Assembly: GCA_016183765.1 (NCBI GenBank)
Contig: JACPEA010000011.1
Span: 434,001-498,000, forward strand
Origin: Bacteroidota bacterium
Lineage (GTDB): Bacteria > Bacteroidota > Bacteroidia > Chitinophagales > Chitinophagaceae
Length of the DNA: 64,000 nt
Reading direction: 5' to 3'
In this document: piece by piece, positions 20,832 to 50,574 of the stretch
How positions within the stretch are numbered: position 1 is the first letter of the stretch
Layout: each line of letters starts with the position of its first letter
Notes under the pieces: model-generated
Database searches by the model: none
Told to the model about the DNA's origin: nothing
What the model saw: the letters and a program-made list of their open reading frames with translations, nothing else
Translations under genes and position numbers: made by a program

Positions 20832-20857
20832 GGAAAATTGCTTTACGAAAACAGGAA
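20832..20857 (-). promoter_or_regulatory. Shared TonB-receptor operator, copy A
   Basis: This 26-bp stretch matches 50549-50574 at 24 of 26 positions; the strictly conserved core on the minus strand is TTCCTGTTTTCGTAAA. It begins 33 nt upstream of the -7 box and 58 nt upstream of the ATG, against 32 and 62 for the other copy. The gene lacks a -33 box. A conserved site at a fixed distance upstream of two receptor promoters points to an activator, for example of the AraC family; the identity is inference. Confidence 0.65.
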
Positions 20858-21011
20858 ATTGAAATATTGGGTCTTTGCAGATACTGATCAAGTGTGTGGA
20901 ACAGTCTAACATTTTCATATTCAATGATTCCGGAAAATAAAAGTTATTTTCGGGAAGAGAACCTATAGCGGAACGCCGCGCCATTATCCCAACTATACCG
21001 AAACTGCAATC

Positions 21012-22727
21012 ATGAAAGAGCAGCAACTCAGAAGCCGTAACTGGTTTGGCCGTAAGGGTAAAGAAGGCTTTATTTACCGTGCCTGGATGAAGAACCAGGG
21101 CATACCCCAGGATATGTTTGAAGGTAAACCTGTGATAGGTATCTGTAATACCTGGAGTGAGCTCACCCCCTGCAATGCGCATTTCCGCGACCTGGCAGAA
21201 GCCGTTAAAAAAGGAGTGCTGGAAGCCGGCGGTTTCCCGGTGGAATTTCCGGTGATGTCGCTGGGCGAAACCCTGGTAAAACCAACAGCCATGTTATACC
21301 GCAACCTGGTGAGCATGGATGTGGAAGAATCCATCCGCGCCAACCCGGTGGATGGTGTGGTATTGCTTTGCGGCTGCGATAAAACCACTCCCTCACTGGT
21401 GATGGGTGCCTGCAGCGTGGATATTCCCACACTGGTGATCTCCGGAGGACCGATGTTAAAAGGTCACTGGAAAGGGAAAGATATCGGCACATCCGATGTA
21501 TGGCGTTTTGATGTGGCCCATAAACTGGGTCAGATCACCCAGGAAGAATTTGTAGAAGCCGAAGCCTGCATGGCCCGTACCCAGGGTCATTGTGCGGTAA
21601 TGGGTACAGCTTCCACCATGGCTGTGATGGTGGAAGCGCTCGGATTATCCTTACCCAACAATGCTTCCATCCCGGCAGCTGATGCCCGCAGAAAAGTACT
21701 CTCCCAGTTATCGGGACGCAGAATTGTGGAGATGGTGAAAGAAGACCTTACGCTTTCCAAAATACTTACCCGTAAAGCCTTCGAAAATGCCATCAAAGTG
21801 AATGCGGCCATCGGCGGCTCCACCAATTTTGTGATCCACTTACTGGCCATCGCGGGAAGGATCGGGGTAGACCTCTGCCTGGATGATTTTGACAAACACT
21901 CACAAGGCATACCCTTACTGGCCAACATACAACCTTCCGGAGAGAATTATATGGAAGACCTCTACTACTCGGGCGGTTTGCCCGCCGTGATCAGGGAAAT
22001 GTCTTCGGTCATACATACCGATGCCGTTACGGTGAACGGTAAGACCATGGGTGAGAACTGCAGTAAGGCAGAAGTGTACGACAGGACTATCATCAGTACC
22101 CTGTCTGACCCGTTCAAGCCAGAATCCGGTATCATCGTGGTGAAAGGTAACCTGGCTCCCAATGGTGCGGTCATCAAACCCTCTGCTGCCAGCGCCAACC
22201 TGCTGCAGCATTCCGGCAAAGCGGTCGTATTTGAAAATATTGAAGACTATCATGCACGGATCGATGATCCGGCTCTCGAGATAGATGCCAATAGCATCAT
22301 GGTATTAAAGAATGTGGGACCCAAAGGTTACCCCGGCATGGCCGAAGTGGGTAATATGGCCCTCCCCAAAAAATTACTGGAGAAAGGGGTTACAGACCTG
22401 GTCCGCATCTCAGACGGAAGAATGAGCGGGACCGGTTTTGGAACGGTGGTCCTGCATGTATCCCCCGAAGCAGCCGTAGGTGGCCCCTTGGCACTGGTTC
22501 AGAATGGTGATACCATTCACCTGGATGTGGCAAACCGCAAGCTGGAACTGGCTGTAACTGATGAAGAACTTGCAAAACGGAAAGCCGGCTGGCAGCTCAA
22601 AGAAAAAATGGAAACCAGGGGTTATGTACATCTTTACCAGACACATGTGGAACAGGCACACCTGGGAGCCGATATGGACTTTCTGAAAGGAGGTTCGGGC
22701 AGCCAGGTCACCCGGGATTCACACTGA
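21012..22727 (+). CDS. IlvD/Edd-family dehydratase, sugar-acid (L-arabinonate dehydratase-like) type
   Basis: 571 residues. The three conserved cysteines for the [2Fe-2S] cluster lie in IGICNTWSELTPCNAH, LLCGCDKTTPS and ARTQGHCAVMGTASTMA. IlvD itself makes branched-chain 2-oxo acids, but the N-terminus (LRSRNWFGRKGKEGFIYRAW in part) and GICNTWSELTPCNAHFRDLAE resemble the pentonate/hexonate dehydratase branch, such as L-arabinonate dehydratase, more than housekeeping IlvD. No ilvB/N/C genes are adjacent, which supports a sugar-acid role, but no sugar-acid pathway genes are adjacent either. I therefore give no gene symbol. It ends in a strong terminator. Confidence 0.82.
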   Translation: MKEQQLRSRNWFGRKGKEGFIYRAWMKNQGIPQDMFEGKPVIGICNTWSELTPCNAHFRDLAEAVKKGVLEAGGFPVEFPVMSLGETLVKPTAMLYRNLVSMDVEESIRANPVDGVVLLCGCDKTTPSLVMGACSVDIPTLVISGGPMLKGHWKGKDIGTSDVWRFDVAHKLGQITQEEFVEAEACMARTQGHCAVMGTASTMAVMVEALGLSLPNNASIPAADARRKVLSQLSGRRIVEMVKEDLTLSKILTRKAFENAIKVNAAIGGSTNFVIHLLAIAGRIGVDLCLDDFDKHSQGIPLLANIQPSGENYMEDLYYSGGLPAVIREMSSVIHTDAVTVNGKTMGENCSKAEVYDRTIISTLSDPFKPESGIIVVKGNLAPNGAVIKPSAASANLLQHSGKAVVFENIEDYHARIDDPALEIDANSIMVLKNVGPKGYPGMAEVGNMALPKKLLEKGVTDLVRISDGRMSGTGFGTVVLHVSPEAAVGGPLALVQNGDTIHLDVANRKLELAVTDEELAKRKAGWQLKEKMETRGYVHLYQTHVEQAHLGADMDFLKGGSGSQVTRDSH

Positions 22728-22746
22728 TCTTTGTTTGCTTTATAGA

Positions 22747-22777
22747 GCCCGCAGAAACTATTTTGCGGGCTTTTTTG
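22747..22777 (+). terminator. Intrinsic terminator after the dehydratase gene
   Basis: GCCCGCA pairs with TGCGGGC, followed by TTTTTTG. Confidence 0.9.
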
Positions 22778-22827
22778 TGCCTTGGTCTATACGCCCAGGT
22801 CAAATGCATCTAAATTTTTTCAGAGCA

Positions 22828-22850
22828 GTCGCTCGGCTCCGCCGAGTGAC
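22828..22850. repeat. REP-like palindrome
   Basis: GTCGCTCGGC pairs with GCCGAGTGAC around a TCC loop, with one G-T position. A second small stem (AGGCTTCCAGCCT) follows 20 nt later. The paired GC-rich palindromes resemble extragenic repeats of the REP/RAYT kind, but only one copy is in this window. Confidence 0.45.
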
Positions 22851-23048
22851 GCCTATCCTAAGGCTTCCAGCCTAAAAATCTTAACCCTGCAATACCCTGC
22901 CGTACAACCAGATAAAATTTTTTATTATCAAAAATTGCGGAACTTTACACTATGCAACTCTGGAAAAATATCATCAGCCGTCCTTCCTGAATGCACACTC
23001 TCTTGCAGTGAATTGCACCCGAAAATACTTCACTGTCTTTCTCTGAAT

Positions 23049-23093
23049 ATGGATAGATCACCGCTATTGCCTTACAGCTTCTGTTTGTTGTAG
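23049..23093 (+). other. Possible 14-codon leader peptide upstream of tryptophanase
   Basis: ATG to TAG encodes MDRSPLLPYSFCLL, ending 56 nt before the tryptophanase start. E. coli tna is controlled by the TnaC leader, which needs Trp12 and a terminal Pro; this peptide has no Trp, so a TnaC mechanism as known is not supported. It is listed only because of its position ahead of a hairpin. Confidence 0.2.
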
Positions 23094-23108
23094 CGGGTAA
23101 TTGATGTC

Positions 23109-23130
23109 TGCCTGCTTATTACGGCAGGCA
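23109..23130 (+). promoter_or_regulatory. Leader hairpin just before the tryptophanase start
   Basis: TGCCTGC pairs with GCAGGCA across an 8-nt loop, ending 19 nt before the ATG. It has no T-tract, so it is more likely to affect translation or mRNA stability than termination. Confidence 0.4.
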
Positions 23131-23149
23131 CACCATTTAAACGATACAT

Positions 23150-24523
23150 ATGAAAACGATCATTGAACCTTTCCGGATCAAATCCGTGGAGCCCATCTAT
23201 TTCACTACCAAAGAAGAACGAGCCCATATCCTGCAGCAGGCTTTTTACAATCCATTCCTGATTCATGCCGACCAGGTGCTGATAGACCTGCTTACCGACA
23301 GCGGCACCAGCGCCATGAGCAGTAACCAGTGGGCCGGCATGATGCAGGGCGATGAGTCCTATGCGGGCAGTACCAGTTTCTTTCATTTCGAAAAAACGAT
23401 ACAGGATATCACGGGCCTGCCCCTCGTAATTCCTACTCACCAGGGAAGGGCCGCTGAAAAGATCCTGTTCAGTATACTTGGTGGTAAAGGAAAATATATG
23501 GTAAGCAACACCCTGTTCGATACCACCCGCGCCAATATTGAATACTCGGGGGCTGAAGGTATAGACCTGGTTTGTGAAGAAGGCAAACATCCATCCATAC
23601 CGGCGCCATTCAAAGGCAATATGGATACGGTTGCCCTGCAAAGATTCATACAGGAAAAAGGGGCTGCCCAGATCCCGTTGTGCGTGATCACGGTGACCAA
23701 TAATTCCGGCGGCGGACAACCCGTGAGTATGCAGAATATCCGCGAAGTGCACCGCATCTGCCAGGCAAATGGGATCCCGCTTTTTATCGACGCCTGCCGT
23801 TTTGCGGAGAACGCCTATTTCATCAAACAGCGTGAAACAGGTTATTCCGATAAGACCATTCCTGCAATTGTACGTGAAATGTTCTCTTATGCAGACGGCT
23901 GCACCATGAGCGCCAAAAAAGATGCGTTCGCCAATATCGGCGGTTTCCTGGCCATGCACAATGAAGCGTTGGCACAGCAATGCCGCAATATGATGATCAT
24001 GACGGAAGGTTTTCCTACCTATGGCGGCCTGGCCGGCCGCGACCTGGAAGCCATTGCCATCGGGTTGACCGAAGTGATGGACGAACACTACCTGCAATAC
24101 CGTATCCGCAGTACCGAATACCTCTGCAACAAACTCATCGCCGCAGGCGTACCCGTGATGCAGCCAGCCGGCGGACATGCCATTTACCTCGATGCCAAAG
24201 AATTTCTGCCACATATCCCGGTCGATCAGTATCCCGGCCAGGCATTGGTAGGGGCTTTGTATGTACATGGTGGTATCCGTAGCGTAGAGATAGGCTCCTT
24301 GATGTTCGGTAAATATGATGCTGATAAAAAACTGGTGCCTGCACAACTGGAGCTGGTCCGGCTGGCCATACCCAGAAGGGTGTATACGCAAAGCCATATA
24401 GACTATGTGGCCGAAGTGATCATAGAAGTGTTCTGCGAAAAAGAGAAGATCAAAGGACTTGCTATTACGGAAGAAGCACCGATGTTGCGCCATTTTACCG
24501 CTAAACTCAAACCCATTCAATAA
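23150..24523 (+). CDS. tnaA: Tryptophanase (L-tryptophan indole-lyase)
   Basis: 457 residues of the beta-eliminating PLP fold. It splits L-tryptophan to indole, pyruvate and ammonia. The PLP lysine is in [10 protein letters not shown] (probably Lys257). Two positions separate tryptophanase from tyrosine phenol-lyase: the FDTT motif has Asp124 where the lyase has Thr, and LRHFTAKL has His448 where the lyase has Phe. IRSVEIGS also follows tryptophanase rather than the VRxMERG of phenol-lyase. The next gene, 15 bp downstream, is the paralogous phenol-lyase, so the pair is probably one operon. Confidence 0.9.
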   Translation: MKTIIEPFRIKSVEPIYFTTKEERAHILQQAFYNPFLIHADQVLIDLLTDSGTSAMSSNQWAGMMQGDESYAGSTSFFHFEKTIQDITGLPLVIPTHQGRAAEKILFSILGGKGKYMVSNTLFDTTRANIEYSGAEGIDLVCEEGKHPSIPAPFKGNMDTVALQRFIQEKGAAQIPLCVITVTNNSGGGQPVSMQNIREVHRICQANGIPLFIDACRFAENAYFIKQRETGYSDKTIPAIVREMFSYADGCTMSAKKDAFANIGGFLAMHNEALAQQCRNMMIMTEGFPTYGGLAGRDLEAIAIGLTEVMDEHYLQYRIRSTEYLCNKLIAAGVPVMQPAGGHAIYLDAKEFLPHIPVDQYPGQALVGALYVHGGIRSVEIGSLMFGKYDADKKLVPAQLELVRLAIPRRVYTQSHIDYVAEVIIEVFCEKEKIKGLAITEEAPMLRHFTAKLKPIQ

Positions 24524-26728
<2,205 letters not shown>

Positions 26729-26833
26729 GTTGAACCGATGGTAAAAGTTACTGCTTTTTCAACAGATAAGTGATAAACGGGGCTTTGCATAACAGCGTCT
26801 GACCGGTTGTCTTGTAGAGAGACCGGTAAAAGA

Positions 26834-26860
26834 AAACAGGCCATAAGGCCTGCTTTCAGA
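26834..26860. terminator. Intrinsic terminator of the copper-receptor operon
   Basis: On the minus strand, AGCAGGCC pairs with GGCCTGTT around TTAT and is followed by TTCTTTT. The stem is symmetric enough to work in both directions. Confidence 0.75.
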
Positions 26861-26877
26861 TAACAGGAAAAGACAAC

Positions 26878-28923
26878 TCAAAACTGGTAAGAAGCCATCA
26901 TCACCCAGCTTCTGCCCGGTGAGTTCAGCGGCAGGGTGGAACTGATATAGCGACTCAGGTGTTCTTTATATGTTTGGTTGAACAGGTTCTGAACAGCCAA
27001 TGTGAACTGCAGTTTTGCTGCCGGCCTGATATTCAGTCCCAGGTCAGTAACTGTAAATGCTGCCGTAGTTTTTTCATTGAATGCAGTGGAAACCCGGTTC
27101 TGTTCAAACGAATGACGAAGGCTGATATAACCGGTGATCTTATTTTTATACAGATCAGCCTGCAGTTTATTCCTGAGTTCAAAAGGGTTGATCTCGGGCA
27201 GTGGCTGGTCCAACTCCCTGTTTTGTCCCCTGGTATAAGTAGCGCTGAGCTCATTACGGATACGGCTGCCAACCTGCTGCCCCCAATGAAATTCAAAACC
27301 TGTCAACCGCGCATTACTGATATTGATAAACCTTCTTACGCCCGGTGCTGTTGACACCACTGGTTTTAGGGTAGGATCAACCACCGAACTGATGAAGTTC
27401 TGCACGGAAGATGCAAAGAGGGTCACCTGCAGACTGGTAGATTGGTTTTTATAAGCCAGTATCAGATCCAGTTGCGTATTGGCTTCGGGTTTCAGTTGTG
27501 CATTGCCCACTACTTCATAGGCATCCAGCCCAACAGGAATGAAATTGATGAATTTTTCCGTGATACTGGCACTTCTCACGCCCCGTCCCAGCCATAATCC
27601 GGCCTGGAAGGATCTGGAGAAAATGCGGTTGATACCGGCACTGATGCTGGGGTTCAGATCAGCTGTTTCCAGCTTGGTATTGGTGCCGGCGTATTTGGTG
27701 CTTACTGCATTGGGTTTTGCATGAACCAGGTCTAACCTGGAAGAAAGGGTGAATTCATATTTTCCGATGGTCTTGTCAAAGTGGCCAAAAAAGCCGGTAT
27801 GCAACAGGGAAGCTTTTTGCCACAAAGTGTCTGTAAAGGTTTTACCCGCCATCATACCGGTGATCATGGTCCGGGTACGGTTGCCATTGGCATATTCATA
27901 TTTCAGGTCGGCACCCAGGTAGAGGGCCTGGTTATTTTTTTTGATCTGGAACTCTGTCTTGCCGCCGGAGGTCTGGGTATTGGAGAACACATGACTTAAC
28001 ATGGTGGCAGAAGCCGGACGTAAACCATTGCCCATCTGGTGGTCAACAAAGGAAGTAAATACCTGTGTGTTCCACTGGCTGTACCATCTGTTGGTCGATC
28101 TTATCTGGTACTTTCCCTGGATCATCCAGGTATCATCGCTTAACAGATCCATCATCAATGTGGGGAAAGAAGTGTTGCGCGCAAAATTCCGGGTGATGTT
28201 AATAGAAGCCACCTGGTTTTGTTTCACCTGGTAAGCTGCATTCAGGTTGATAGCGCCGCGATTGAATACAGCGGGAATGATGGTGCCGTTGCCATCTTTA
28301 TAATCCCGTCCGTTGGAATACGAACCAGCCAATGACACTTGTGTATTTTTCCCCCTCATTCCGATCTGTCCTTCTGTCCGGAAGATGTCTCCGTTGGATT
28401 CACCACCGATATTGATCCTGCCGAACATTTCTTTTTGTGAACTGAATACAGGTTCTGCTGTTTTGAAATTGACCACTGCACCTGTAGCGGGTCCAAAACG
28501 AAAATTGTGTGGTCCTTTGATCACTTCGATCTTTTCTACCTGGTTGATCATGACCTGGCTGCTGGGCGGGTCCATCCGGTTGGGACAGGCGGCATGTGCG
28601 GTCAGTCCGCCATCGTTGAGGATGCTTACCTGCTCCCACTTGAAACCACGGAATACGGGATCAAATCCAAAATCGCCGCTTTTCCGGATCGAAGAAAAAC
28701 CAGGTATCTGCAACAGCACTTCACCGGCATCATGTTTTACCCAGTCGGCATGTGTCAGTTTCAGGGATTTATGGGTGGGTTTGCCTTTCAGGGCATATAC
28801 ACTAACGGGACTGAGGGTTTCAACCGTTGAATCGTTGAAATTATTATTTTGTGCGGAAGCTGTTTGGGTATACAATAACAGTGCAAGCACCCCCACAAAG
28901 AGGCTTGTGAAATTCGTTTTCAT
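26878..28923 (-). CDS. TonB-dependent copper receptor, OprC/NosA type
   Basis: 681 residues: signal peptide (ALLLYTQTASAQ), plug and barrel ending in RSWVMMASYQF. The plug contains AACPNRMDPPSS with Cys113 and Met117; in Pseudomonas OprC the same C-x3-M pair binds copper, so copper import is well supported. Length is normal for this subfamily and there is no carboxypeptidase-like domain. A small Cys-rich membrane protein gene starts the same transcription unit 59 bp upstream. A palindrome upstream of that gene suggests redox- or oxygen-linked activation, consistent with copper demand for respiratory enzymes. Confidence 0.9.
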   Translation of the reverse strand: MKTNFTSLFVGVLALLLYTQTASAQNNNFNDSTVETLSPVSVYALKGKPTHKSLKLTHADWVKHDAGEVLLQIPGFSSIRKSGDFGFDPVFRGFKWEQVSILNDGGLTAHAACPNRMDPPSSQVMINQVEKIEVIKGPHNFRFGPATGAVVNFKTAEPVFSSQKEMFGRINIGGESNGDIFRTEGQIGMRGKNTQVSLAGSYSNGRDYKDGNGTIIPAVFNRGAINLNAAYQVKQNQVASINITRNFARNTSFPTLMMDLLSDDTWMIQGKYQIRSTNRWYSQWNTQVFTSFVDHQMGNGLRPASATMLSHVFSNTQTSGGKTEFQIKKNNQALYLGADLKYEYANGNRTRTMITGMMAGKTFTDTLWQKASLLHTGFFGHFDKTIGKYEFTLSSRLDLVHAKPNAVSTKYAGTNTKLETADLNPSISAGINRIFSRSFQAGLWLGRGVRSASITEKFINFIPVGLDAYEVVGNAQLKPEANTQLDLILAYKNQSTSLQVTLFASSVQNFISSVVDPTLKPVVSTAPGVRRFINISNARLTGFEFHWGQQVGSRIRNELSATYTRGQNRELDQPLPEINPFELRNKLQADLYKNKITGYISLRHSFEQNRVSTAFNEKTTAAFTVTDLGLNIRPAAKLQFTLAVQNLFNQTYKEHLSRYISSTLPLNSPGRSWVMMASYQF

Positions 28924-28982
28924 GATGTTTGTTTAATAGATAACAGATCTGCGGAGCAGAGGACAAGAATGGGCAGTTATGA

Positions 28983-29354
28983 TCAGGCTGCCTGTGGGGG
29001 GTGAAACAGATTCAACGATACATCAATGGTGGTATTGATATTCCTGTGGGTGTATATTGTTGTGTGAGAAATGGTTGGTGAACAGACTGTGGCAAAAAAG
29101 CTTTTTGAACTGATCACTTCTTCGGTAAATCCCGTTTTTCTTTCGGGCGCCTGTTTGTCTTGTGTGCTGCTGTCCTGATCCAGTTTCTTCTGTAACTGGC
29201 AGTGACCATTACATTTCAGTTTGGGTTTTGCCTTGTTGATACAGTTCTTCAGGTAAACCTCCCGGTTAAACTGGTAATCGGCATAGTACAGCATTTTGGA
29301 ATAGTTACTGGCCAGCAGTGAAAGAAGGATCCATATAACGGCAAACTGTTTCAA
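28983..29354 (-). CDS. Small Cys-rich membrane-anchored protein, copper-locus associated
   Basis: 123 residues starting at TTG. One N-terminal hydrophobic segment (FAVIWILLSLLASNYSKMLYY) is followed by YADYQFNREVYLKNCINKAK and KCNGHCQLQKKL, giving Cys38, Cys48 and Cys52 with His51, a plausible metal site. Small proteins with a C-N-G-x-C motif are frequent beside TonB copper receptors in Bacteroidota; their function is not established. As first gene of the operon it lies downstream of the TGA-N6-TCA palindrome and a perfect -7 box. A role in copper handling is inference. Confidence 0.7.
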   Translation of the reverse strand: MKQFAVIWILLSLLASNYSKMLYYADYQFNREVYLKNCINKAKPKLKCNGHCQLQKKLDQDSSTQDKQAPERKTGFTEEVISSKSFFATVCSPTISHTTIYTHRNINTTIDVSLNLFHPPQAA

Positions 29355-29376
29355 AATAACAGGCTGATTTCAGAGA

Positions 29377-29421
29377 CAAAGATAAAACCTGCCATGGCAG
29401 ATAATATGACCAGGGTCATAT
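29377..29421 (-). promoter_or_regulatory. Promoter with Crp/Fnr-like operator for the copper-receptor operon
   Basis: On the minus strand a perfect -7 box TATCTTTG lies at 29384-29377. No TTTG -33 box is present at the usual distance. Instead a perfect palindrome ATATGACC-AG-GGTCATAT (29404-29421) carries the TGA-N6-TCA core of Crp/Fnr family sites, and its centre is about 40 nt upstream of the expected start, the class II activator position. A second perfect palindrome, CTGCCATGGCAG (29389-29400), lies between the two. Regulator identity is inference. Confidence 0.6.
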
Positions 29422-29451
29422 CTGTGATAAAATTCCTTAACAGTGAATGAA

Positions 29452-30669: not shown

Positions 30670-30706
30670 GTACCTAAAGTTATTATTATTTAACAGTTAA
30701 GCCTGC

Positions 30707-31954: not shown

Positions 31955-32013
31955 GAAAAAAGGGTTCCGTTGCTGGCAACGAGGGTTCAGGAAAATGCAA
32001 AGTAACGGGTAGT

Positions 32014-37964: not shown

Positions 37965-37968
37965 GTAT

Positions 37969-39228: not shown

Positions 39229-39235
39229 GACTGGT

Positions 39236-39844: not shown

Positions 39845-39847
39845 TTA

Positions 39848-39873: not shown

Positions 39874-39980
39874 GACAGTAAACTGAAATATGCAGGAAAA
39901 ATCCATCAAAAATATTTTTCAACCTGATTGACAGCCCCCCGGTACGGGAACTATTTGATAAATTGTTGCTTTATAAACAG

Positions 39981-40733
39981 ATGAACATCTTTTCCTTATT
40001 TCCTTTTTCCGAATGGGTCATGATCCTGCTGGCGGCTTTTATCATTGGACTGGGTAAAGCCGGCCTGAAGGGGGTAGACATGCTGAGCGTGACCCTGATG
40101 GCTTTTGTGTTCGGGGGTAAATCTTCTACCGGTATTGTATTGCCGTTATTGTGCGCAGCAGATATTGCCGCCGTATGGTATTATCACCGTCACGCCCAAT
40201 GGCAGCATTTCTGGAAACTGACACCCTGGATGGTGCTGGGTGTTTTACTGGGTGTGTACTTCGGCAAGGACATGAATGAGGCGGTTTTCCGTAAGCTGAT
40301 GGCACTGATCATTGTACTGACCATTGTGATCGTGCTGGTGCAGGAGTTGCGCAAATCAAAACGGGTGCCCACACATCCTTTGTTTGCTGTGGTAACGGGA
40401 GTGTCGGCAGGGTTCACCACCATGATCGGTAACCTTGCCGGTGCGTTCGCTAACCTGTATTTCCTGGCCATGCGCATGCAGAAGAACGATTTTATCGGCA
40501 CGGCTGCCTGGGTCTTCCTGTTCATGAACCTGTTCAAACTTCCTTTCCAGGTATTTTACTGGAAAAACATCAATGCACAGAGTTTACAGATAGACGCGGT
40601 ACTCTTACCCATGCTGGCACTGGGTTTTTATACCGGTCTCTGGCTGGTGGCCAGGATCCGGGACACCAGTTACCGCAAAATGGTCATGGTATTGACCCTG
40701 ATCGGCTGTGTGCTGATGTTGTTCAGGCGCTGA
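39981..40733 (+). CDS. TSUP/TauE-SafE family membrane carrier
   Basis: 250 residues with about eight hydrophobic segments and the family feature IIGLGKAGLKGVDMLSVTLMA repeated as TGVSAGFTTMIGNLAGAFAN. TSUP proteins carry sulfite, sulfonates or organic acids; the substrate here is unknown. ATG (MNIFSLFPF) is chosen over an in-frame TTG 18 nt earlier. It is divergent from the tetR operon and ends just before the serine-hydrolase gene. Confidence 0.85.
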   Translation: MNIFSLFPFSEWVMILLAAFIIGLGKAGLKGVDMLSVTLMAFVFGGKSSTGIVLPLLCAADIAAVWYYHRHAQWQHFWKLTPWMVLGVLLGVYFGKDMNEAVFRKLMALIIVLTIVIVLVQELRKSKRVPTHPLFAVVTGVSAGFTTMIGNLAGAFANLYFLAMRMQKNDFIGTAAWVFLFMNLFKLPFQVFYWKNINAQSLQIDAVLLPMLALGFYTGLWLVARIRDTSYRKMVMVLTLIGCVLMLFRR

Positions 40734-40799
40734 GTGGCTGATGGCCGTCTTCTGAAATCATATCTTTTACATAGCTTACCCATCAAATCCTTAATTTTT

Positions 40800-41954: not shown

Positions 41955-41959
41955 CTTTG
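41927..41959 (+). promoter_or_regulatory. Promoter TTTG-N21-TAACTTTG for the SDR gene
   Basis: TTTG (-33 type) at 41927-41930 and TAACTTTG (-7 type, perfect) at 41952-41959, 21 nt apart. It overlaps the end of the serine-hydrolase gene and lies 60 nt before the SDR start. Confidence 0.65.
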
Positions 41960-42019
41960 TAAGCAGGTTGCAGTGTGGAACAGAAAGAATGCAACCGACA
42001 AACGTATAAAACAGGTACT

Positions 42020-42853
42020 ATGAAAAATGTATGGTTGATCACCGGTTGCTCCACCGGTTTTGGAAGAGAGCTGGCAAAAGAATTATTGACCAATGGATAC
42101 CAGGTTGCTGTGACGGCAAGGAATGTGGCGGATATTGCGGATATCGTTACAGCTTATCCGGATACAGCCATCAGTCTCCGGCTGGATGTTACCGACGCGC
42201 AGCAGATCGAACAGGCGGTAAAAGCCGCCATCGACCGTTTCGGAAGGATCGATGTGTTGGTGAACAATGCAGGCATCGGGTATTTCGGCGCCATTGAAGA
42301 AAGTGAAGAAGCAGAAGTGAGAAGAATGTTCGAGATCAATGTGTTTGGACTGGCCAGGATGACACAGGAAGTGTTGCCGCATATGCGTAAGCAAAAAAGC
42401 GGTCATATCCTGAATGTTGCTTCTATCGGCGGACTGCGTTCTTTCCCGGGCGTTGGTTTCTATAATGCCACCAAATATGCGGTGGACGGTTTAAGCGAAT
42501 CGCTTGCCAAGGAACTGGCGCCGCTGGGTATCAAAGTGACTGTGATCGCACCCAGCGGTTTCCGTACTGACTGGGCCGGCCGTTCAGCGAAGAACACCAG
42601 CATCAAAATAGAGGATTATGCCACCACCGCCTGGAAAAATATGGGCGATATCAGGGGCTACAGCGGCAACCAGCCGGGCGATCCGGTAAAAGCGGCCAGG
42701 GCCATGATACAGGTGACCGAAACAGAAAATCCCCCCATGCGTCTTTTATTAGGGGTAGCTGCCTTGAAAGGTGCCCGCGCCAAACTGGAAGAACTGAAAA
42801 AGGATTTTGATACCTGGGCAGTAGTAAGCGAAGGGGCTGATTTTACAAAATAA
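42020..42853 (+). CDS. Short-chain dehydrogenase/reductase
   Basis: 277 residues of the classical SDR type: cofactor motif TGCSTGFGREL, VLVNNAGIGYFG, catalytic Ser in NVASIGG and YNATKYA (YxxxK). The Gly pattern and an acidic residue after strand 2 (SLRLDVTD further on) leave NAD or NADP open. The substrate is unknown. The ATG (MKNVWLITG) fits the family start; an upstream GTG extension (EQKECNRQTYKTGT) is not conserved in character. Confidence 0.9.
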   Translation: MKNVWLITGCSTGFGRELAKELLTNGYQVAVTARNVADIADIVTAYPDTAISLRLDVTDAQQIEQAVKAAIDRFGRIDVLVNNAGIGYFGAIEESEEAEVRRMFEINVFGLARMTQEVLPHMRKQKSGHILNVASIGGLRSFPGVGFYNATKYAVDGLSESLAKELAPLGIKVTVIAPSGFRTDWAGRSAKNTSIKIEDYATTAWKNMGDIRGYSGNQPGDPVKAARAMIQVTETENPPMRLLLGVAALKGARAKLEELKKDFDTWAVVSEGADFTK

Positions 42854-42975
42854 GAAAAGCCCGTTCCCCAAGAAATGAAAAGGGGGGGATCCTGGTTTTG
42901 CTGTCCTTCCCTTTCCATTTCTGCTGGCAGGCCTGTATGCATTATATACTTATCTTCAATTCAAATCTTTATTGG

Positions 42976-44082
42976 ATGAAGAAACTATTCCTGTTACTTG
43001 CCTTGTTCACAGCCGTACGCGGTAGCACTCAGCAAACGAAATTTTACACCATCAATGCTGATACTACGCAATTCAGCCTCACCAAGGAAGGCGCTTCACA
43101 GTTGGCCATGCTGCCGATGAAATGTATCCTGCAGCAGTATCCCAATAAGATCAATCATACGGCGGTTTCGGACAGCGACCAGGTGCTGACACCCATTCAG
43201 CAGCATCCCAGTTTTTATGGTTGTTTCGACTGGCATAGCAGTGTTCACGGCCACTGGATGCTGGTTCGTCTGTTACAACAATTCCCGGATCTGAAGGAGC
43301 AGGCGGCTATCCGGAAAGTATTGAATACAACGCTTACTGCTAAGAATATCCAGGCCGAGACAGAATATTTCAAAGCGCCTCTGAGCAGAAGTTTCGAACG
43401 GACCTATGGATGGGCCTGGGTGCTGAAACTGCAGCAGGAATTGTTGAACTGGAACGATCCCGATGCAGGTCAATGGCGGAATGCATTGCAGCCATTGTGC
43501 GATACCATCATTAAATTATGGGAGGTTTATCTTCCCAAACAAACCTATGCCAACAGATCGGGCATGCATGGTAACACGGCTTTTGGATTGAGTTTTGCGT
43601 TGGATTATGCACGTGCTACAAAAAATTATGCATTCGAGAACAAGATCATCGTTGCCGCCACACAATTGTTTGGAAAAGATACCAACGCACCCACCGTGTG
43701 GGAACCGGATGGTGCCGACTTTTTTTCACCATCACTGATGGAAGCCGACCTGATGCGTAAAGTGTTTACTAAAAAGAGTTTCATCGATTGGTTCGGAAAA
43801 TGGTTGGACCCTCAATCGCTGCTTCACCTGACTCGTTTACCGCATGTATCTGACAGAACGGATCTGCAGATCGTACACCTGGATGGTTTGTGCTTCAGCA
43901 GAAGCTGGTGCATGTCGGGCATTGCACAGCAGCTTCCAAAAAATGATAACCGCCGGAAAATACTGGTTGCTTCCTCTGTAAAACACCTGAACCAGAGTTT
44001 GGCAACAGTGGCTTCAGGTCATTATGGTGGTGAACACTGGCTGGCGAGTTTTGCCGTGTATGCCATTAGTGGTGGCAAATAG
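42976..44082 (+). CDS. DUF2891 family exported protein
   Basis: 368 residues with a signal peptide (LFLLLALFTAVRGSTQQ). Family motifs are FYGCFDWHSSVHGHWMLVR, ERTYGWAWVLKLQQEL, NRSGMHGNTAFGL and EPDGADFFSPSLMEADLM. The fold is a probable alpha/alpha toroid like glycan lyases and isomerases, but no activity is established. The SDR gene is co-oriented 122 bp upstream. A strong bidirectional terminator follows. Confidence 0.85.
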   Translation: MKKLFLLLALFTAVRGSTQQTKFYTINADTTQFSLTKEGASQLAMLPMKCILQQYPNKINHTAVSDSDQVLTPIQQHPSFYGCFDWHSSVHGHWMLVRLLQQFPDLKEQAAIRKVLNTTLTAKNIQAETEYFKAPLSRSFERTYGWAWVLKLQQELLNWNDPDAGQWRNALQPLCDTIIKLWEVYLPKQTYANRSGMHGNTAFGLSFALDYARATKNYAFENKIIVAATQLFGKDTNAPTVWEPDGADFFSPSLMEADLMRKVFTKKSFIDWFGKWLDPQSLLHLTRLPHVSDRTDLQIVHLDGLCFSRSWCMSGIAQQLPKNDNRRKILVASSVKHLNQSLATVASGHYGGEHWLASFAVYAISGGK

Positions 44083-44110
44083 AATAGCTGTTCAAAGAAT
44101 AGGATAAATG

Positions 44111-44146
44111 AACAGGGCTCACGGTAAACTGAGCCCTGTTCTTTTG
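44111..44146. terminator. Strong bidirectional terminator
   Basis: AACAGGGCTCA pairs perfectly with TGAGCCCTGTT across an 8-nt loop, with CTTTTG downstream. It separates the convergent DUF2891 and DUF4153 genes. Confidence 0.9.
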
Positions 44147-44174
44147 TATGAAGAATCGATCCTGATAAGTATGG

Positions 44175-45467
44175 TTACTTAAATCCGAAAATAAGCGGTA
44201 GTAAAAATGTGATCAAAGCAGCCCAGATTCCATACAAAGGGAGGAAGCGTGCTATTACATTTTCTACTTTTTGTACATCGGCCTTATTTTGTAAGGCACG
44301 CAGTAGCTGATAAGTAACCCATAATAGATTCATAAAAACCAGCAGATTGGCACCCAATACGGCCAGCCTATTGGGCGATATGCCGAATTCGGTAAGACGG
44401 AATGCAATGGCAGATAACGCAATGCTGTTCACCACAATACTCAATAAAGATAACCCGAATAAAAAAAGCAGGTTGATCCTGTTGCCTGTGTTCTTGGTGG
44501 CCTCCGACACCGAAAAAAGAATGATGGCAATCACTGCGATCAGCAGACCGTTGAACATTAATAGGAAATTCCTGTCATGATATACATTTTTGCCTGTGTA
44601 GATAATGGTACACAGGAAGATGAACAGCGTAACGAATACAACGGGTGTGAAGATCCTGGCAATCAGGGGCGAGATCCTGTTGACCAGTTGCGGGTTGGTC
44701 TGAACCAGGAAGGCGGACAGTACGGGAACCGCTGCCAGTCCCCATGCCAGTATGTGCTGTGCATAAAATTCCTGTATATGCAGTCCGATCATTTCAAACA
44801 GGCCGAAAGTGATGCCGGTGAACAGGATACCCGAAAGCACCAGGATAGCCGTCATAACAGCGAAATCACCGTTGAAACGGAGAAAATCGATCTTTTTCTG
44901 GTTGTCAGAAAGGTTGCCGTCCACAAAACTGTATCCAAGCAGGGTCCACAAAAAAACGGGTAAATGGATACAGGCCAATATCAGCGTATCGCTTTTAGGA
45001 TTATCGGGCAGAAGATTGATATAACATGCGGATGCCAGTATGATAACCAAAGACGGTACTGATTTTCGGAGAGCTGTTTTTTGTTTCCATGAAAAATATC
45101 CTATGAGTACAGGAAACACGATGAATCCGACGTTACGCGAAAAAAAGAATTCTTTGTTCATGCCGGACAGGGCGGGAAGGTTAGCAATGAGTCCCGCCAT
45201 AAGGGAAGCCAGTACCAAGAAAAGCAGGTCATTTCTGGAGCCTGTATAAAATTCATCCTGCTGGTAGTTCAATCTTTCGTTCCATACCTGTGCAACGGGG
45301 TTGTCACGCAGGTCGGTATAAAGCGTATTGAATACTTTTTGAAAGGATGTTTTGTTTTTCCTGTATAATTTTTCGAGCTCCACAGGCCGGTCGATGTTAT
45401 GGAGTATGTTTTCTTTAACGCTATCAAATTCCGCGTTCGTTTTTATTGCGACAGTGCTTGTTTCCAT
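44175..45467 (-). CDS. DUF4153 multi-pass membrane protein
   Basis: 430 residues: a soluble N-terminal part of about 85 residues, then about ten transmembrane helices (for example LLFLVLASLMAGLIANLPAL and FAVMTAILVLSGILFTGITF). The pattern matches Bacteroidota DUF4153 proteins; function unknown. It is the last gene of a co-oriented four-gene cluster: small membrane protein, six-helix protein, winged-helix regulator, this gene. Confidence 0.8.
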   Translation of the reverse strand: METSTVAIKTNAEFDSVKENILHNIDRPVELEKLYRKNKTSFQKVFNTLYTDLRDNPVAQVWNERLNYQQDEFYTGSRNDLLFLVLASLMAGLIANLPALSGMNKEFFFSRNVGFIVFPVLIGYFSWKQKTALRKSVPSLVIILASACYINLLPDNPKSDTLILACIHLPVFLWTLLGYSFVDGNLSDNQKKIDFLRFNGDFAVMTAILVLSGILFTGITFGLFEMIGLHIQEFYAQHILAWGLAAVPVLSAFLVQTNPQLVNRISPLIARIFTPVVFVTLFIFLCTIIYTGKNVYHDRNFLLMFNGLLIAVIAIILFSVSEATKNTGNRINLLFLFGLSLLSIVVNSIALSAIAFRLTEFGISPNRLAVLGANLLVFMNLLWVTYQLLRALQNKADVQKVENVIARFLPLYGIWAALITFLLPLIFGFK

Positions 45468-45512
45468 ATGGTGAAGGTTTAGGTATGTTTTTGCAAAGGC
45501 TGTGAAGTGGTA

Positions 45513-45812
45513 TCAGGTTGACTTTTTGATTAGTTTCTCCAGACCGGCCAGGTGTTCGATAAAGGCTTTTTTACCGGCCGGAGTTGCTGCATAGGAAGTG
45601 TTGGGTCTTTTGCCGATAAATTGCTTTCTCACATCGATGTATTGCAGTTTTTCGAGTGCGCTCAAATGACTGGCCACATTGCCATCTGTGATCTGTAACT
45701 GTTCTTTGAGCGTGCCGAAATCCACAAAGTCGTTCACCATGAGGATCGACATGATACCCAGGCGCACCCTGCTCTCAAAGGCTTTATTCAATTCTGTGAT
45801 GTAGTTTTTCAC
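45513..45812 (-). CDS. Winged-helix transcriptional regulator (HTH_27/MarR-like)
   Basis: 99 residues forming one winged helix: ESRVRLGIMSILMVNDFVDF, then LKEQLQITDGNVASHLSALEKLQYIDVRKQFIG and TSYAATPAGKKAFIEHL. Such single-domain regulators in Bacteroidota often control the membrane proteins encoded next to them. Its start overlaps the six-helix membrane gene by 4 bp, implying translational coupling. Confidence 0.88.
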   Translation of the reverse strand: MKNYITELNKAFESRVRLGIMSILMVNDFVDFGTLKEQLQITDGNVASHLSALEKLQYIDVRKQFIGKRPNTSYAATPAGKKAFIEHLAGLEKLIKKST

Positions 45813-46447
45813 TTCTCGTAGGTAAAGTAGATTGTGATACCATATACTATATGCAGTATGCCGAACCCAAAAGCCCAGAACAGCAGGCCATAATCGATGA
45901 AAAAGGAAGCGAGCAACCCAAGCACAAGTTCCAGTACGCCCAGGTAGCGGATATCGTTAATGGTATATTTACTGGCATTCAAAAGCGCCATACCATAAAA
46001 AAGCAAACTGGCCGGGGCTACCAGGGCAACCTGTCCGTGGTACAGTAATACCAGGCAATACATACCACCTGCTACCAGTGGAATGGCCATGTTCAGCAGC
46101 ATACGCCGGGCAGTGGCATCCCAAACGGGCAGGCTTTGTTTCCTGGCTTTCCTGACCGCCATCAAAACGCCAGTGAACAGGGAAAGCAGTAATACCAGGC
46201 CGAAATCGGCGGCGAGGAACGTACAGGTGGAGAGTTGTAATCCGCCATTTTCGTCCTTCAGCAGGTTATAGTAACCCGTAGCTAATGGTGAAAGCCCCAG
46301 GAACAGGTATACAGCAACAATGCAGGCAATGGCGAATATGCCAACAATCACTCCGGCAAGACCACTGAGCGATAAAAAACGAGAAGAGCGTTCCATCAGG
46401 TTCCTGATATCGCGGATGGCTTCTAACTGTTCCTGTTGTTGATTCAT
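45809..46447 (-). CDS. Six-helix membrane protein linked to a winged-helix regulator
   Basis: 212 residues with a short N-terminal charged helix (QEQLEAIRDIRNLMERSSRF) and about six transmembrane segments. The RDIRNLMERSSRF-type start recurs in Bacteroidota membrane proteins paired with winged-helix regulators. No function is known. It overlaps the regulator gene by 4 bp. Confidence 0.75.
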   Translation of the reverse strand: MNQQQEQLEAIRDIRNLMERSSRFLSLSGLAGVIVGIFAIACIVAVYLFLGLSPLATGYYNLLKDENGGLQLSTCTFLAADFGLVLLLSLFTGVLMAVRKARKQSLPVWDATARRMLLNMAIPLVAGGMYCLVLLYHGQVALVAPASLLFYGMALLNASKYTINDIRYLGVLELVLGLLASFFIDYGLLFWAFGFGILHIVYGITIYFTYEK

Positions 46448-46504
46448 GTAGATTCTTTTAAGATGGTTTGCAGTTCAGGTTGATAGAAAGAGGGCGTTCG
46501 GTTT

Positions 46505-46792
46505 TTAAAAGGACTGTACTGGCAGGTCTATCTTGTTAAACAATTCACCAACGCCCAGGCTTACCCAAAGGATGAACAGACCCAGCGCAACTTGTACAAC
46601 ACTGTGGACCCGGTAGCCGGTCGGTTTCCTGAAAAGAGCATGTAATGGCGGGTAGTGCACCAGTGACAGTAACAACAGGAAAACACCAAATAAGGCATCA
46701 TTCCCCCAGAATATATTCACTACGCCGATAGCGGAAAACAGGATGCCGCATATCCAGCCGAGCAATTTTACTGCAAGGGTTCTGTTATTCAT
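46505..46792 (-). CDS. Small three-helix membrane protein
   Basis: 95 residues with three hydrophobic segments (LLGWICGILFSAIGVVNIFW, FGVFLLLLSLVHYPPL, VVQVALGLFILWVSLG). Unrecognised. It is probably the first gene of the cluster that ends with the DUF4153 gene; AT-rich DNA upstream is likely its promoter region. Confidence 0.65.
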   Translation of the reverse strand: MNNRTLAVKLLGWICGILFSAIGVVNIFWGNDALFGVFLLLLSLVHYPPLHALFRKPTGYRVHSVVQVALGLFILWVSLGVGELFNKIDLPVQSF

Positions 46793-46916
46793 CAGTTTTT
46801 AATAATTTAAAAGTACTTTGAATTTCAAAGTTAATATTAAAAATAAGACTTCCAAATATTTCTGGATGCGTAAAGTGCCGGTAGTGGGAATGTTATCCGT
46901 AGAATGTGCCGGGGTT

Positions 46917-48053
46917 TTACAAGTGTCTGCCGCCGGCCAATGTTGTTTTTCTTCTTTTATGTTTCCTTCCCCACCAGAATAAAAAACCCGTAACAGGCAG
47001 GCTGGCAACGATTAATGAGGCAAAAAACAAGGCGATTCTGCCGGGTAAACCCCAGACAGCGCCCGTATGAATGTCGTAGTTCATTCGTTTCAGGTAATCG
47101 GCAGGGGTATGTGCATCCCGGTAATTTCCCCATACATAGGCTCCCGGTATTTCTTTTCCGGTAAATTGATCAAAATACCGGAAATCGGTTTTGTACAGGG
47201 TTCCCGATTCTGGGTTGGCCCGTAACAGGATAGCGCCGTTCCTGCCGGCAGGTAATACCAGCAGGGCTGTGGCGTATTTTTTGTGCAGGTCTGGCTGAAT
47301 CGTTCCCCATACCAGGTCTAAGCCGTTATTTCTTTTGGTGATGCTGCCGCTTGTATCAGATACAGGTGGTTTTTTCTGTACCACCGAATGCCGGGAGCCG
47401 GTAAATTGGTATATCCTGTCTGCCAGGTTTTCAAAACCAAACAGAAGCCCGGTGATGGCAGTGAAGAGAACGATCCAGGTTGCATAAAAGCCCAGTATCC
47501 TGTGAAGGTCATAATTCAGGCGCTTGGGGTGGGCATTCCACATTATTTTGAATCCCCGTTTTGCTGTTTTCCTGTTCCGCGGCCACCATAGGATGATTCC
47601 TGAAACCAGCATTAGTAGAAAAACAACGGTAGCCCATCGTATGATATCCTGTCCATATGGAATTAATAGCGTCCGGTGCAGCTGTAACACCACACTGAAA
47701 AAGTCCCGATGGTTGTCACGCACTTTCAGTACATCGCCATTATAAGGGTTGATAAAAACAGAATAGTTATAGGATCCTTTTTCGGAAAACAATACCATCA
47801 CTGCTTTATCCCTGGCATCATAATAGATTCGCTGAACCATTTTTCCCGGCAACCGTTGTTCTGCGATCTGTTTTATCTGCGAAGGGGGCAGCAGGGGAGC
47901 GTGTTCGACCTGAACTTTCCGGTACCACTGCCTGTTTTGCAGTTCTGGTGCAAAACAATAGATCGCACCGGTCAGTCCCTGTATCAGTACCACGAGCCCG
48001 GTTGCCAGGCCAAGCCAGAGATGAAGTTTTCCAAACAGTTTTTTAAAGGTCAT
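46917..48053 (-). CDS. PepSY-associated TM helix protein (iron-uptake partner)
   Basis: 378 residues with four transmembrane helices and two periplasmic PepSY-like stretches: KLHLWLGLATGLVVLIQGLT at the start, NPYNGDVLKVRDNHRDF, LNYDLHRILGFYATWIVLFTA and MNYDIHTGAVWGLPGRI, with conserved His residues in TM regions. These proteins accompany siderophore TonB receptors and may reduce or release ferric ligands. It is encoded 67 bp after the receptor gene. MTFKKLFGK is taken as the start; MTNKMTFKK, 12 nt upstream, is equally possible. Confidence 0.87.
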   Translation of the reverse strand: MTFKKLFGKLHLWLGLATGLVVLIQGLTGAIYCFAPELQNRQWYRKVQVEHAPLLPPSQIKQIAEQRLPGKMVQRIYYDARDKAVMVLFSEKGSYNYSVFINPYNGDVLKVRDNHRDFFSVVLQLHRTLLIPYGQDIIRWATVVFLLMLVSGIILWWPRNRKTAKRGFKIMWNAHPKRLNYDLHRILGFYATWIVLFTAITGLLFGFENLADRIYQFTGSRHSVVQKKPPVSDTSGSITKRNNGLDLVWGTIQPDLHKKYATALLVLPAGRNGAILLRANPESGTLYKTDFRYFDQFTGKEIPGAYVWGNYRDAHTPADYLKRMNYDIHTGAVWGLPGRIALFFASLIVASLPVTGFLFWWGRKHKRRKTTLAGGRHL

Positions 48054-48120
48054 TTTGTTTGTCATGAACCCGGTGATCCCGGTCCCGATGAAGTTCTCAG
48101 AATTGATTGCCGGTAATGGT

Positions 48121-50487
48121 TTATAGTTTCACATTCAGTGTTAAACGGTAAGCTGCGCCTTTTCCTTTGGTATAACTATCATTGAAAGCGCCAACCTGTG
48201 AGCGTACTGTAAAGTAATTTTCGTTCAGCAGGTTTTCAAGGCCCAGGTTTATTGAGGTGCTTTCGCTGAAGTTGTAGCCGGCAGATATGTTGAATAAATG
48301 ATAGGGACTTACCGGGGCTTTGTACGGATCGTATGAGCCGCTGCTATTCCTGGCAAAGCGGTCTCTTTTCATCACTCCTGTATACTGAAGCAACAGGTTC
48401 AATTTTCCGGGCAATACGCTGTAATCAATATAGCCGGCCAGTTTGGGCGGTGAAATCCGTTGACCAGGCAGGTACTCATCTTTTACGCCATCATACCGGC
48501 CATCGTTGTCGGCATCCAGTTTGCCTTCCACATAACTGTAAGAAAGACCGGCTTTCATATGCCTGCTTACTTCCATATCGGCTGCAATCTCATATCCATA
48601 GATCTTCTCCGGACTTCTTACAACCACAAAACTACCGTTTTGATAAACGCTGTTTGCTCCCAGGCTGGATTTACTGATATAGCCTGTTACTTCAAAACGG
48701 ATCTTATGGAACTTGCTAACAAAACCGGCTTCATAATTGTTGACAATAACAGCTTCCGTGTTGATCTTGGAAATACTGTTCACCCTTGCCGATCTCAGCA
48801 CAAGACCGATATCTGATACACTGAATCCCTGTGAAAAACTCAGGTAAGGAGAAAAATACCGTGAAAGGTTATAACGCAATCCCACGTTAGAGACAAAGGC
48901 ATTGTACCGTAACTGTCCACCCTGTACATTCATGGAGGGTGTTACCACGCCCGTGCTGGTGTTTTTGGTGGGTAGTGTGGCGTAATCACCCACACCGATC
49001 GTTACTTTTTCATAACGCATGCCCCCTTTCAGTACTAATTTTTCAAGCAGCGTCAGTTTTGTCTGAACAAAAGGAGCCAGGTTTACCATGTTCATTTCTG
49101 GTACCCAGATCCTGCCGTCTACCAGTGGTTGTGAAGTGATATCTTTTTGCCAGTCAAGCCCATAGGTAAAATTGGTTTCTATGCTTTTCCAGGAAACAGG
49201 CGTATTCAGTACCAGGCGGGCTCCTTTTTTCTGGGAGAGGATACGCGAGATACCTCCATCCACAAATGTTTCGGAATAAAAGAAGATGTTGTCAACGCTT
49301 TGATAGTAGATATCAGCATCGTAGTGTGTTTTTGCAATACCGGTATTCCCCGAAAATTGCAGGCCAAGATTATGGTTACCCCTTACACCCTGTGGCACGC
49401 CTGCACTTTCTCCTAATTTGGCAGTTGTTTTTTTCCCGGTTTTATAATCGCCGTTTACAGTGAGGTAATTGGTGGTTTGACGGCTGCTGAAGAAGTTGTA
49501 AGTAGCCTGTACTTTGTGATGCTTATTGAACTCGTATCCCAATTTGGCAAAAGCGTTATATGAGTCTGTCTCGCCCAGTCCATATACGGGAGGTAATATA
49601 TCACCGGAAGCATCTTTATACTCGCCGGTTTGCTCGTATACGCCGCTTGTTACATAACTGAACTTTCCTTTATTTCCATAAAACAGCTGGCTCAGCCGAC
49701 CGCCCATGCTATTGGAAGCCCTGACCAGCGATCCTGTTATTCCTGCAGAAGTCTGGCTGTTAAATGCTTTGTTCGATTTGGGTTCGCGGGTAAAATAATT
49801 GATCAGGCCGCCGGCAGCCCCATTTCCGTAAATGGCGGTGGCGCCTTTTACCACTTCAATACGTTCTATGGCAGCAGGGTCAAGCGCCCGCAGGTCCATG
49901 GCCCCATTGCGCAGAGGCGTAGATTGGGGCACACCATCTACCATGACCAGCAGGCTGCGACCACGGAGTGTCTGGCCAAAATTGCTACTGAGGCCTGTGC
50001 TGGGGGCCAGGCCAGCTACCCGGTTTTCCAGGATATCGCCCAGGTTAGTGGTAATGTTCATGCTCTGTTGCAGCGTTTTCTGTCCAACAAGGGAAACAGA
50101 AGAAGGTACCTGATCGATGGTTTCCCGGGTACGTCCCGCTGATACGATGACTTCGGCCAGTTCCGCCGGAGTGCTTGTCAATTGAATGGTAAGAGAAACT
50201 ATACTGTCTGTGGTAACGGTTAGTTGCCTTTCCTGGCTAAGGTAACCAACACTGGATATGTGCAGGCTGTATGTTCCGGGTAGTAGATTTTTGATGATAA
50301 AGAGGCCCTCATTATTGGTGAGCGTGGTTTTCCGGATCTCTTTAATACGAACGGTAGCTGATGCGATGGGCTGGTGTTCTGCATTGATAAGGGTTCCCCT
50401 GATACTACTGTTGCCGGTTTCGTTTTGGGCAAATATGGGTAAGGATAGGATAAGCAGGCAACAAACGTGGAATAGTCTGGTTCTCAT
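48121..50487 (-). CDS. TonB-dependent siderophore-type receptor
   Basis: 788 residues: signal peptide (LLILSLPIFAQ), a carboxypeptidase-regulatory-like domain at about 27-105 (IRGTLINAEHQPIASATVRI), plug (SAGRTRETIDQVPSSVSLVG, VKGATAIYGNGAAGGLINYFT) and a 22-strand barrel ending YRLTLNVKL. The plug and the PepSY partner point to ferric siderophore import. Its upstream region carries the same 26-bp motif as the FecA-like receptor gene at 20.8 kb. Confidence 0.9.
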   Translation of the reverse strand: MRTRLFHVCCLLILSLPIFAQNETGNSSIRGTLINAEHQPIASATVRIKEIRKTTLTNNEGLFIIKNLLPGTYSLHISSVGYLSQERQLTVTTDSIVSLTIQLTSTPAELAEVIVSAGRTRETIDQVPSSVSLVGQKTLQQSMNITTNLGDILENRVAGLAPSTGLSSNFGQTLRGRSLLVMVDGVPQSTPLRNGAMDLRALDPAAIERIEVVKGATAIYGNGAAGGLINYFTREPKSNKAFNSQTSAGITGSLVRASNSMGGRLSQLFYGNKGKFSYVTSGVYEQTGEYKDASGDILPPVYGLGETDSYNAFAKLGYEFNKHHKVQATYNFFSSRQTTNYLTVNGDYKTGKKTTAKLGESAGVPQGVRGNHNLGLQFSGNTGIAKTHYDADIYYQSVDNIFFYSETFVDGGISRILSQKKGARLVLNTPVSWKSIETNFTYGLDWQKDITSQPLVDGRIWVPEMNMVNLAPFVQTKLTLLEKLVLKGGMRYEKVTIGVGDYATLPTKNTSTGVVTPSMNVQGGQLRYNAFVSNVGLRYNLSRYFSPYLSFSQGFSVSDIGLVLRSARVNSISKINTEAVIVNNYEAGFVSKFHKIRFEVTGYISKSSLGANSVYQNGSFVVVRSPEKIYGYEIAADMEVSRHMKAGLSYSYVEGKLDADNDGRYDGVKDEYLPGQRISPPKLAGYIDYSVLPGKLNLLLQYTGVMKRDRFARNSSGSYDPYKAPVSPYHLFNISAGYNFSESTSINLGLENLLNENYFTVRSQVGAFNDSYTKGKGAAYRLTLNVKL

Positions 50488-50509
50488 AGTTGATGTACAA
50501 TTTTGGGTG

Positions 50510-50517
50510 CAAAACTG
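50510..50517 (-). promoter_or_regulatory. Likely -7 region (CAGTTTTG) of the siderophore receptor
   Basis: On the minus strand CAGTTTTGCACCC aligns with TACCTTCGCACCC at the FecA-like gene, sharing GCACCC downstream. It deviates from TAnnTTTG at the first base, so it would be weak without an activator. Confidence 0.45.
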
Positions 50518-50548
50518 GGTGCAGAAATTTCTCTCACCTACCTGATTT

Positions 50549-50574
50549 GGAAAATCGATTTACGAAAACAGGAA
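50549..50574 (-). promoter_or_regulatory. Shared TonB-receptor operator, copy B
   Basis: Matches 20832-20857 at 24 of 26 positions, with the same orientation and nearly the same spacing to the -7 region (32 nt) and start codon (62 nt). The conserved core is TTTACGAAAACAGGAA as read on the plus strand. Confidence 0.65.

Follow-up and report, generated by a model that had tools for sequence, protein, structure and literature searches.

Two genes for TonB-dependent receptors in the window, i.e., the whole stretch of 64,000 nt of Chitinophagaceae DNA that was analysed, are preceded by a nearly identical sequence that is in all probability a genuine control site, namely a tandem protein-binding site that recurs before genes of iron and haem uptake throughout this family of soil and freshwater bacteria. 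The distribution of sites and genes among related genomes indicates that the likely regulator reading this site is an AraC-type protein encoded outside the window (G000:C10:21773-22693). The explanation as a whole, according to which a single AraC-family activator binds the motif and switches on iron and haem uptake, appears to us quite probable.

A Sequence Shared by Two Receptor Promoters

The sequences TTCCTGTTTTCGTAAAGCAATTTTCC (20857-20832, minus strand) and TTCCTGTTTTCGTAAATCGATTTTCC (50574-50549, minus strand) are identical at 24 of 26 bases. This exceeds what can be attributed to chance, since the best 26-mer match in 2000 shuffles of both 150-nt upstream stretches was never better than 20. 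The fixed spacing claimed in the preliminary description of this DNA was reproduced: the motif is separated from the -7 boxes by 33 nt (receptor 1) and 32 nt (receptor 2), and from the ATG codons by 58 nt (ATG at 20774) and 62 nt (ATG at 50487), although these distances hold for the 3' ends of the motif and not, as had been worded, for the points at which it begins. The reading of both upstream regions confirmed that neither promoter has a TTTG -33 box. The coordinates of the relevant elements and genes are given in Table 1; the PepSY_TM gene listed there is probably co-transcribed with the gene of receptor 2.

Table 1. Elements of the two receptor promoters and the associated genes in the window.
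Feature	Position	Strand	Sequence or remark
Half-site 1, receptor 1	20842..20858	minus	TTTCCTGTTTTCGTAAA
Half-site 2, receptor 1	20821..20837	minus	TTTTCCCGATTGCGGGA; 3' end degenerate; spacing 22 not 21 bp
-7 box, receptor 1	20792..20799	minus	TACCTTCG; consensus TAnnTTTG
Receptor 1, TonB-dependent receptor, FecA/siderophore type, 736 aa	18564..20774	minus	orthologues in genus
Half-site 1, receptor 2	50559..50575	minus	ATTCCTGTTTTCGTAAA
Half-site 2, receptor 2	50538..50554	minus	TTTTCCAAATCAGGTAG; degenerate
-7 box, receptor 2	50510..50517	minus	CAGTTTTG
Receptor 2, TonB-dependent receptor with CarboxypepD_reg domain, siderophore/haem type, 788 aa	48121..50487	minus	
PepSY_TM inner-membrane protein	46917..48065	minus	55 nt behind receptor 2, same strand

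When searched as a 28-mer with up to 3 mismatches, the sequence occurs in just these two places of the whole genome (3.67 Mb, 17 contigs), and a sequence-only model built from the sites of relatives and of the window assigns strong scores in this genome only to the two window sites. A relaxed search of the same genome (2 mismatches) gave 19 matches vs. 14 for the reversed control, those other than the two window sites being chance-like and mostly intragenic. As the genome contains about 49 TonB Plug genes and two strong sites, the motif marks a small subset of receptors. The confinement of the element to some receptors is also indicated by two further TonB receptors of the window (26878-28923, 681 aa, and 8923-12141, 1072 aa), which have no strong site.

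A paralogue of receptor 1 (L301; G000:C1:139034-141136, minus strand; 40% identity) is preceded, at a distance of 83 nt, by a weakly matching copy of the tandem element, TTTCCGTATCTCGATGATTTGTTTTCCCGATTTCAATA, and could be the third target of this genome. Elsewhere in the window, two adjacent Beta_elim_lyase genes (23150-25918; products of 457 and 459 aa) are likely to encode tandem enzymes of tryptophanase or tyrosine phenol-lyase type.

The presence of two copies 30 kb apart in one genome, matching at so many bases, could also be the result of a recent duplication or of a mobile repeat of no regulatory role. We assign a negligible probability to this explanation, since the similarity stops beyond the site and the promoter and does not form a block, and the receptors are of different types, with 22% identity over their first 280 aa. 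That the element recurs in dozens of genera with its offset unchanged effectively excludes it.

Structure of the Tandem Site

The pattern TTNCNNNTTNCGTAAANNNNTTTYC, derived from the first matches, was searched without mismatches in 399 Chitinophagaceae genomes; such a strict, conserved pattern was adopted because many of the family matches with 3 mismatches were intragenic. The alignment of 107 distinct family sites, anchored on the search pattern alone, reveals a repeat unit of 17 bp, TTTCCnnATTnCGTAAA, which is present as a direct repeat with a period of 21 (or 22) bp. The consensus of half-site 1 is TTTCCnnwTTkCGTAAA, and that of half-site 2, which starts 21 bp after half-site 1, is TTTYCCGATTnnGTAAA, its GATT and GTAAA letters being outside the search pattern. 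A similarity scan had its maximum at the offset of 21, with part of this peak contributed by the positions of the pattern. The initially noticed 26-mer comprises about 1 1/3 half-sites, namely half-site 1 and the beginning of half-site 2. The proposal that the core of this 26-mer defines a regulon is supported by the family scan as far as the regulon is concerned, but the core itself corresponds to a single half-site and not to the whole tandem element.

The -7 box TAnnTTTGC appears at positions 57-65 of the 107 sites without realignment (core T 97%), while no TTTG-like -33 box emerges from the alignment, its place being occupied by half-site 2. TAnnTTTG is the known form of the Bacteroidota -7 element. 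The term occurs in, e.g., PMC6847099 and PMC9723704.

AraC-type tandem sites consist of directly repeated units of about 17 bp that have a period of 21-22 bp and overlap the -35/-33 region, and the element described here has this layout. The preliminary description had considered AraC-type or Fur control; this layout speaks for the former and against the latter. A Fur protein or another metal repressor that occupies the motif and shuts off both receptors under iron-replete conditions could account for the fact that genes of iron or haem uptake make up most of the named targets, and receptors of this kind are commonly controlled by Fur. However, the 17-bp units with the 21-bp period form a direct repeat and not the inverted repeat of a Fur box, which makes Fur unlikely, and the element, located upstream of the -7 box, takes over the position of the -33 box, which calls for an activator. 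Taken together, a repressor of this kind seems very improbable.

Distribution of the Site and Its Target Genes

Matches to the strict pattern were found in 146 of the 399 family genomes. Their number in these genomes was about 236 vs. about 26 for the reversed pattern (totals tallied by hand), while in 288 genomes of the rest of the class it was at the background level, with 17 matches vs. 15 for the control. The sites lie a median of 61 nt before the predicted start. The genome and family scans envisaged in the preliminary description revealed matches that concentrate before genes of TonB receptors and of iron or haem metabolism, with a constant spacing to the -7 box, rather than at random or inside genes, only 5 of the 107 family sites being located within long ORFs. 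The regulon extends through the family, while in the genome of the window its strong part consists of the two window genes.

The genes downstream of the sites (n = 99) encode mostly proteins with the TonB Plug domain (64), followed by DUF6686 (9), PepSY_TM (8), DUF6607 (3), and ABM, an antibiotic-biosynthesis/haem monooxygenase-like domain (2). The predominance of TonB Plug proteins (64/99), together with PepSY_TM, DUF6607, and ABM, resembles the iron-uptake targets of PchR- or IutR-like regulators, the substrate of most of the receptors being presumed to be iron. The neighbours of the sites add PepSY_TM proteins, more receptors, and HmuY haem-binding proteins; the PepSY_TM genes elsewhere in the family are direct targets or site neighbours. 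The Pfam scan of the neighbours was performed with sequences trimmed to 240 aa, from which AraC genes are not countable. The DUF6686 proteins may be a part of iron metabolism. Several of these small proteins (L022, L026, L092, L101, L111, L119, L139, and L141) have a C-x2-C-type pair near the start.

Close relatives of receptor 1 (E <= 1e-100) are encoded by 19 of 30 other genomes of the window's genus. The promoters of almost all full-length orthologues of this receptor contain the tandem element, 37-87 nt before the predicted start, as identified by the highest-scoring profile match in the vicinity of the start and not by the strict pattern. CATAAA often replaces CGTAAA in these promoters, and the one designated L283 contains a perfect 17-bp repeat, TTTCCCGATTGTATAAATGGGTTTCCCGATTGTATAAA. 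A sequence-only model based on 42 sites gave about 1-2 strong matches per genome of the genus, mostly in the promoters of receptor 1. No orthologue of receptor 2 was found at 1e-100 in the 30 genomes of the genus, and therefore receptor 2 looks like an accessory gene that carries the same switch. It may have been acquired horizontally, despite carrying the regulatory site of the family.

Candidate Regulator

A single activator encoded outside the window had been proposed to drive both receptor genes. Our sequence comparisons support this proposal, as a protein of AraC type fits the layout of the site and a specific AraC gene can be named. Among the 11 genes of this genome that encode the HTH_18 (AraC) domain, none of which lies in the window, the candidate is L158:1498-2421 (G000:C10:21773-22693). 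Its product of 307 aa has an HTH_18 domain score of 79.9 bits vs. the cut-off of 33.6, as befits a member of the AraC/XylS family. The gene is divergent from one that appears, on the basis of the first residues of its product, to be gyrB. When the 11 AraC proteins were compared with all ORFs near the sites, L158 alone had close orthologues adjoining sites (55-86% identity). This linkage concerns about nine genera, and in the linked cases that were checked, the AraC gene is upstream of the site and on the same strand; further linked cases, identified by coordinates and counted among these genera, include those of G272, G304, G044 (19 bp), G067, G211, G207, and G149. The relatives of the candidate include proteins of Sediminibacterium, Hydrotalea, Segetibacter, and Filimonas, which identify the family as Chitinophagaceae; the genus of the window is probably Sediminibacterium or one close to it.

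At E <= 1e-30, the candidate protein is single-copy in 376 of the 399 family genomes, and two more genomes have two copies. With the orthologue cut-off of E < 1e-60 adopted for the co-occurrence analysis (counts tallied by hand), the motif is present in 139 of 304 genomes with the orthologue vs. 7 of 95 without it (Fisher p 3e-13). Counted by genus, which removes the effect of shared ancestry only in part, the respective numbers are 53 of 78 and 2 of 23 (Fisher p 4e-7). The 165 genomes that encode the orthologue and have no strict site speak against the candidate, but can be explained partly by the omission of degenerate sites by the strict pattern. The orthologue is absent from the genomes sampled from the rest of the class, where the sole match (5e-42) is a protein without the N-terminal cysteine motif. 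The promoter of the candidate gene itself contains no site, and thus its autoregulation was rejected.

It is highly probable, judging from this linkage and co-occurrence, that the site is bound by the L158 protein. A different protein, either of the AraC family or some other activator, might instead read the tandem site, with the named gene being a passenger in these gene clusters. Such an arrangement would be in line with the presence of ten other HTH_18 proteins in the genome, with the lack of linkage between the named gene and both window sites in this genome, and with the presence of other AraC genes, L159-like and of low identity, in the vicinity of a few sites. Nevertheless, it seems improbable, as genes of the L158 type alone recur next to the sites at high identity and in the same orientation in several genera, and their presence tracks both the motif and the family.

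Two other adjacent genes of this genome, L164 and L166 (G000:C15:728402-729287), encode short proteins in which a heavy-metal-associated-like N-terminal part (GMVCQRC and NMVCDRC, respectively) is joined to the AraC HTH_18 domain. They adjoin a gene whose product starts like a copper P-type ATPase, and they are possible metal-responsive AraC fusions.

Proposed Mechanism of Regulation

In the proposed mechanism, two subunits of the AraC-type protein would bind the two 17-bp half-sites, and the downstream half-site would fill the place of the missing -33 element beside the -7 box. The activator could thereby substitute for the -33 contact and recruit RNA polymerase. The degeneration of half-site 2 in both window promoters counts against this picture. 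Activation in place of repression is very likely in our opinion, and a response to iron is rather likely. The activation of iron and haem uptake in iron shortage is the best reading of the site layout taken together with the target list.

The N-terminal domain of the candidate contains the motif Cx6Cx4Cx2Cx6-7C, which is present in 77 of 79 full-length orthologues, as would be expected of cysteine ligands. In proteins of 43-59% identity, the five cysteines are kept with altered spacing, and a paralogue of 25% identity is devoid of them. Iron shortage could lead to the loss of a bound metal or Fe-S cluster from this motif, and the resulting change of state of the protein would cause activation. 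In the AlphaFold model, the N-terminal domain is rich in beta structure, and the DNA-binding domain is of AraC type, matching those of AraC, MarA, and SoxS (TMt ~0.7-0.8). Confidence is low for the loop with the cysteines (residues ~83-100), and for this reason the binding of metal or an Fe-S cluster is put forward here as a proposal. The whole-length fold matches to ToxT and Rns are weak (TM 0.3-0.4); together with the lack of a modelled cysteine loop, they did not permit us to indicate a ligand. A role of the cysteines as a metal or Fe-S sensor is conceivable, and we lean slightly against it. The stronger version, in which an AraC activator of Chitinophagaceae senses cellular iron directly via a five-cysteine iron or Fe-S site, is doubtful; we know of no AraC protein with direct iron or Fe-S sensing.

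The same regulator may respond to another signal, such as a siderophore, haem, redox state, a metal such as zinc bound by the cysteines, or an organic ligand. Ferri-siderophores are the signal of PchR-like AraC proteins, the weak whole-length fold matches include the fatty-acid-binding ToxT as well as Rns, and cysteines can bind zinc or react with oxidants. However, several types of uptake functions share the site (receptors of siderophore/FecA type and of haem type, a haem monooxygenase-like protein, and HmuY), and this is more in line with a general iron signal than with a single siderophore. We therefore regard a signal other than iron as somewhat unlikely.

The results presented here predict a binding site and its targets, and name a candidate regulator, for the control of iron throughout the family. 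They also suggest a route of activation for those Bacteroidota promoters that have no -33 box, and they assign to the metabolism of iron or haem, as putative members, the uncharacterised proteins DUF6686, DUF6607, and one that is DUF3325-like. If the cysteines do sense iron or an Fe-S cluster, a direct iron-sensing mode would be added to the AraC family. No paper on the motif, the protein, or a regulon of this kind in the family was found in a literature search, most subscription papers being beyond its reach.

Comparison with Known Systems

Fur boxes are inverted repeats, and Fur acts mainly as a repressor. Fur regulons and the genes described here are alike in their iron-uptake targets, while the site described here is directly repeated and has the position of an activator site. 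The prototype of tandem AraC half-sites is araI1-araI2 of E. coli, where AraC is an activator that contacts the polymerase. The site described here is similar to it in having 17-bp half-sites in direct repeat with a 21-bp period and in the overlap of the promoter-proximal half-site with the -35 region (here -33), and differs from it in sequence, targets, and signal; additionally, no looping site is evident here.

PchR of Pseudomonas is an AraC-family activator of iron uptake that senses ferripyochelin. IutR of Synechocystis, also of the AraC family, is required for induction in iron deficiency, and its motifs are found at genes of TonB-dependent transporters (PMC11221513); the word cysteine does not occur in the text of that paper. 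Like PchR and IutR, the candidate is an AraC-family protein associated with TonB receptors and iron uptake, and IutR can be considered its functional analogue. In contrast to both, it occurs in other bacteria, is associated with a different motif, and contains the invariant five-cysteine motif. MliR of Bizionia argentinensis, a marine representative of Bacteroidota, is described as a MerR-like regulator of iron homeostasis (PMC9478572). MliR and the candidate, a proposed iron regulator, are both Bacteroidota proteins, but MliR is of the MerR and not the AraC family and comes from another family of organisms.
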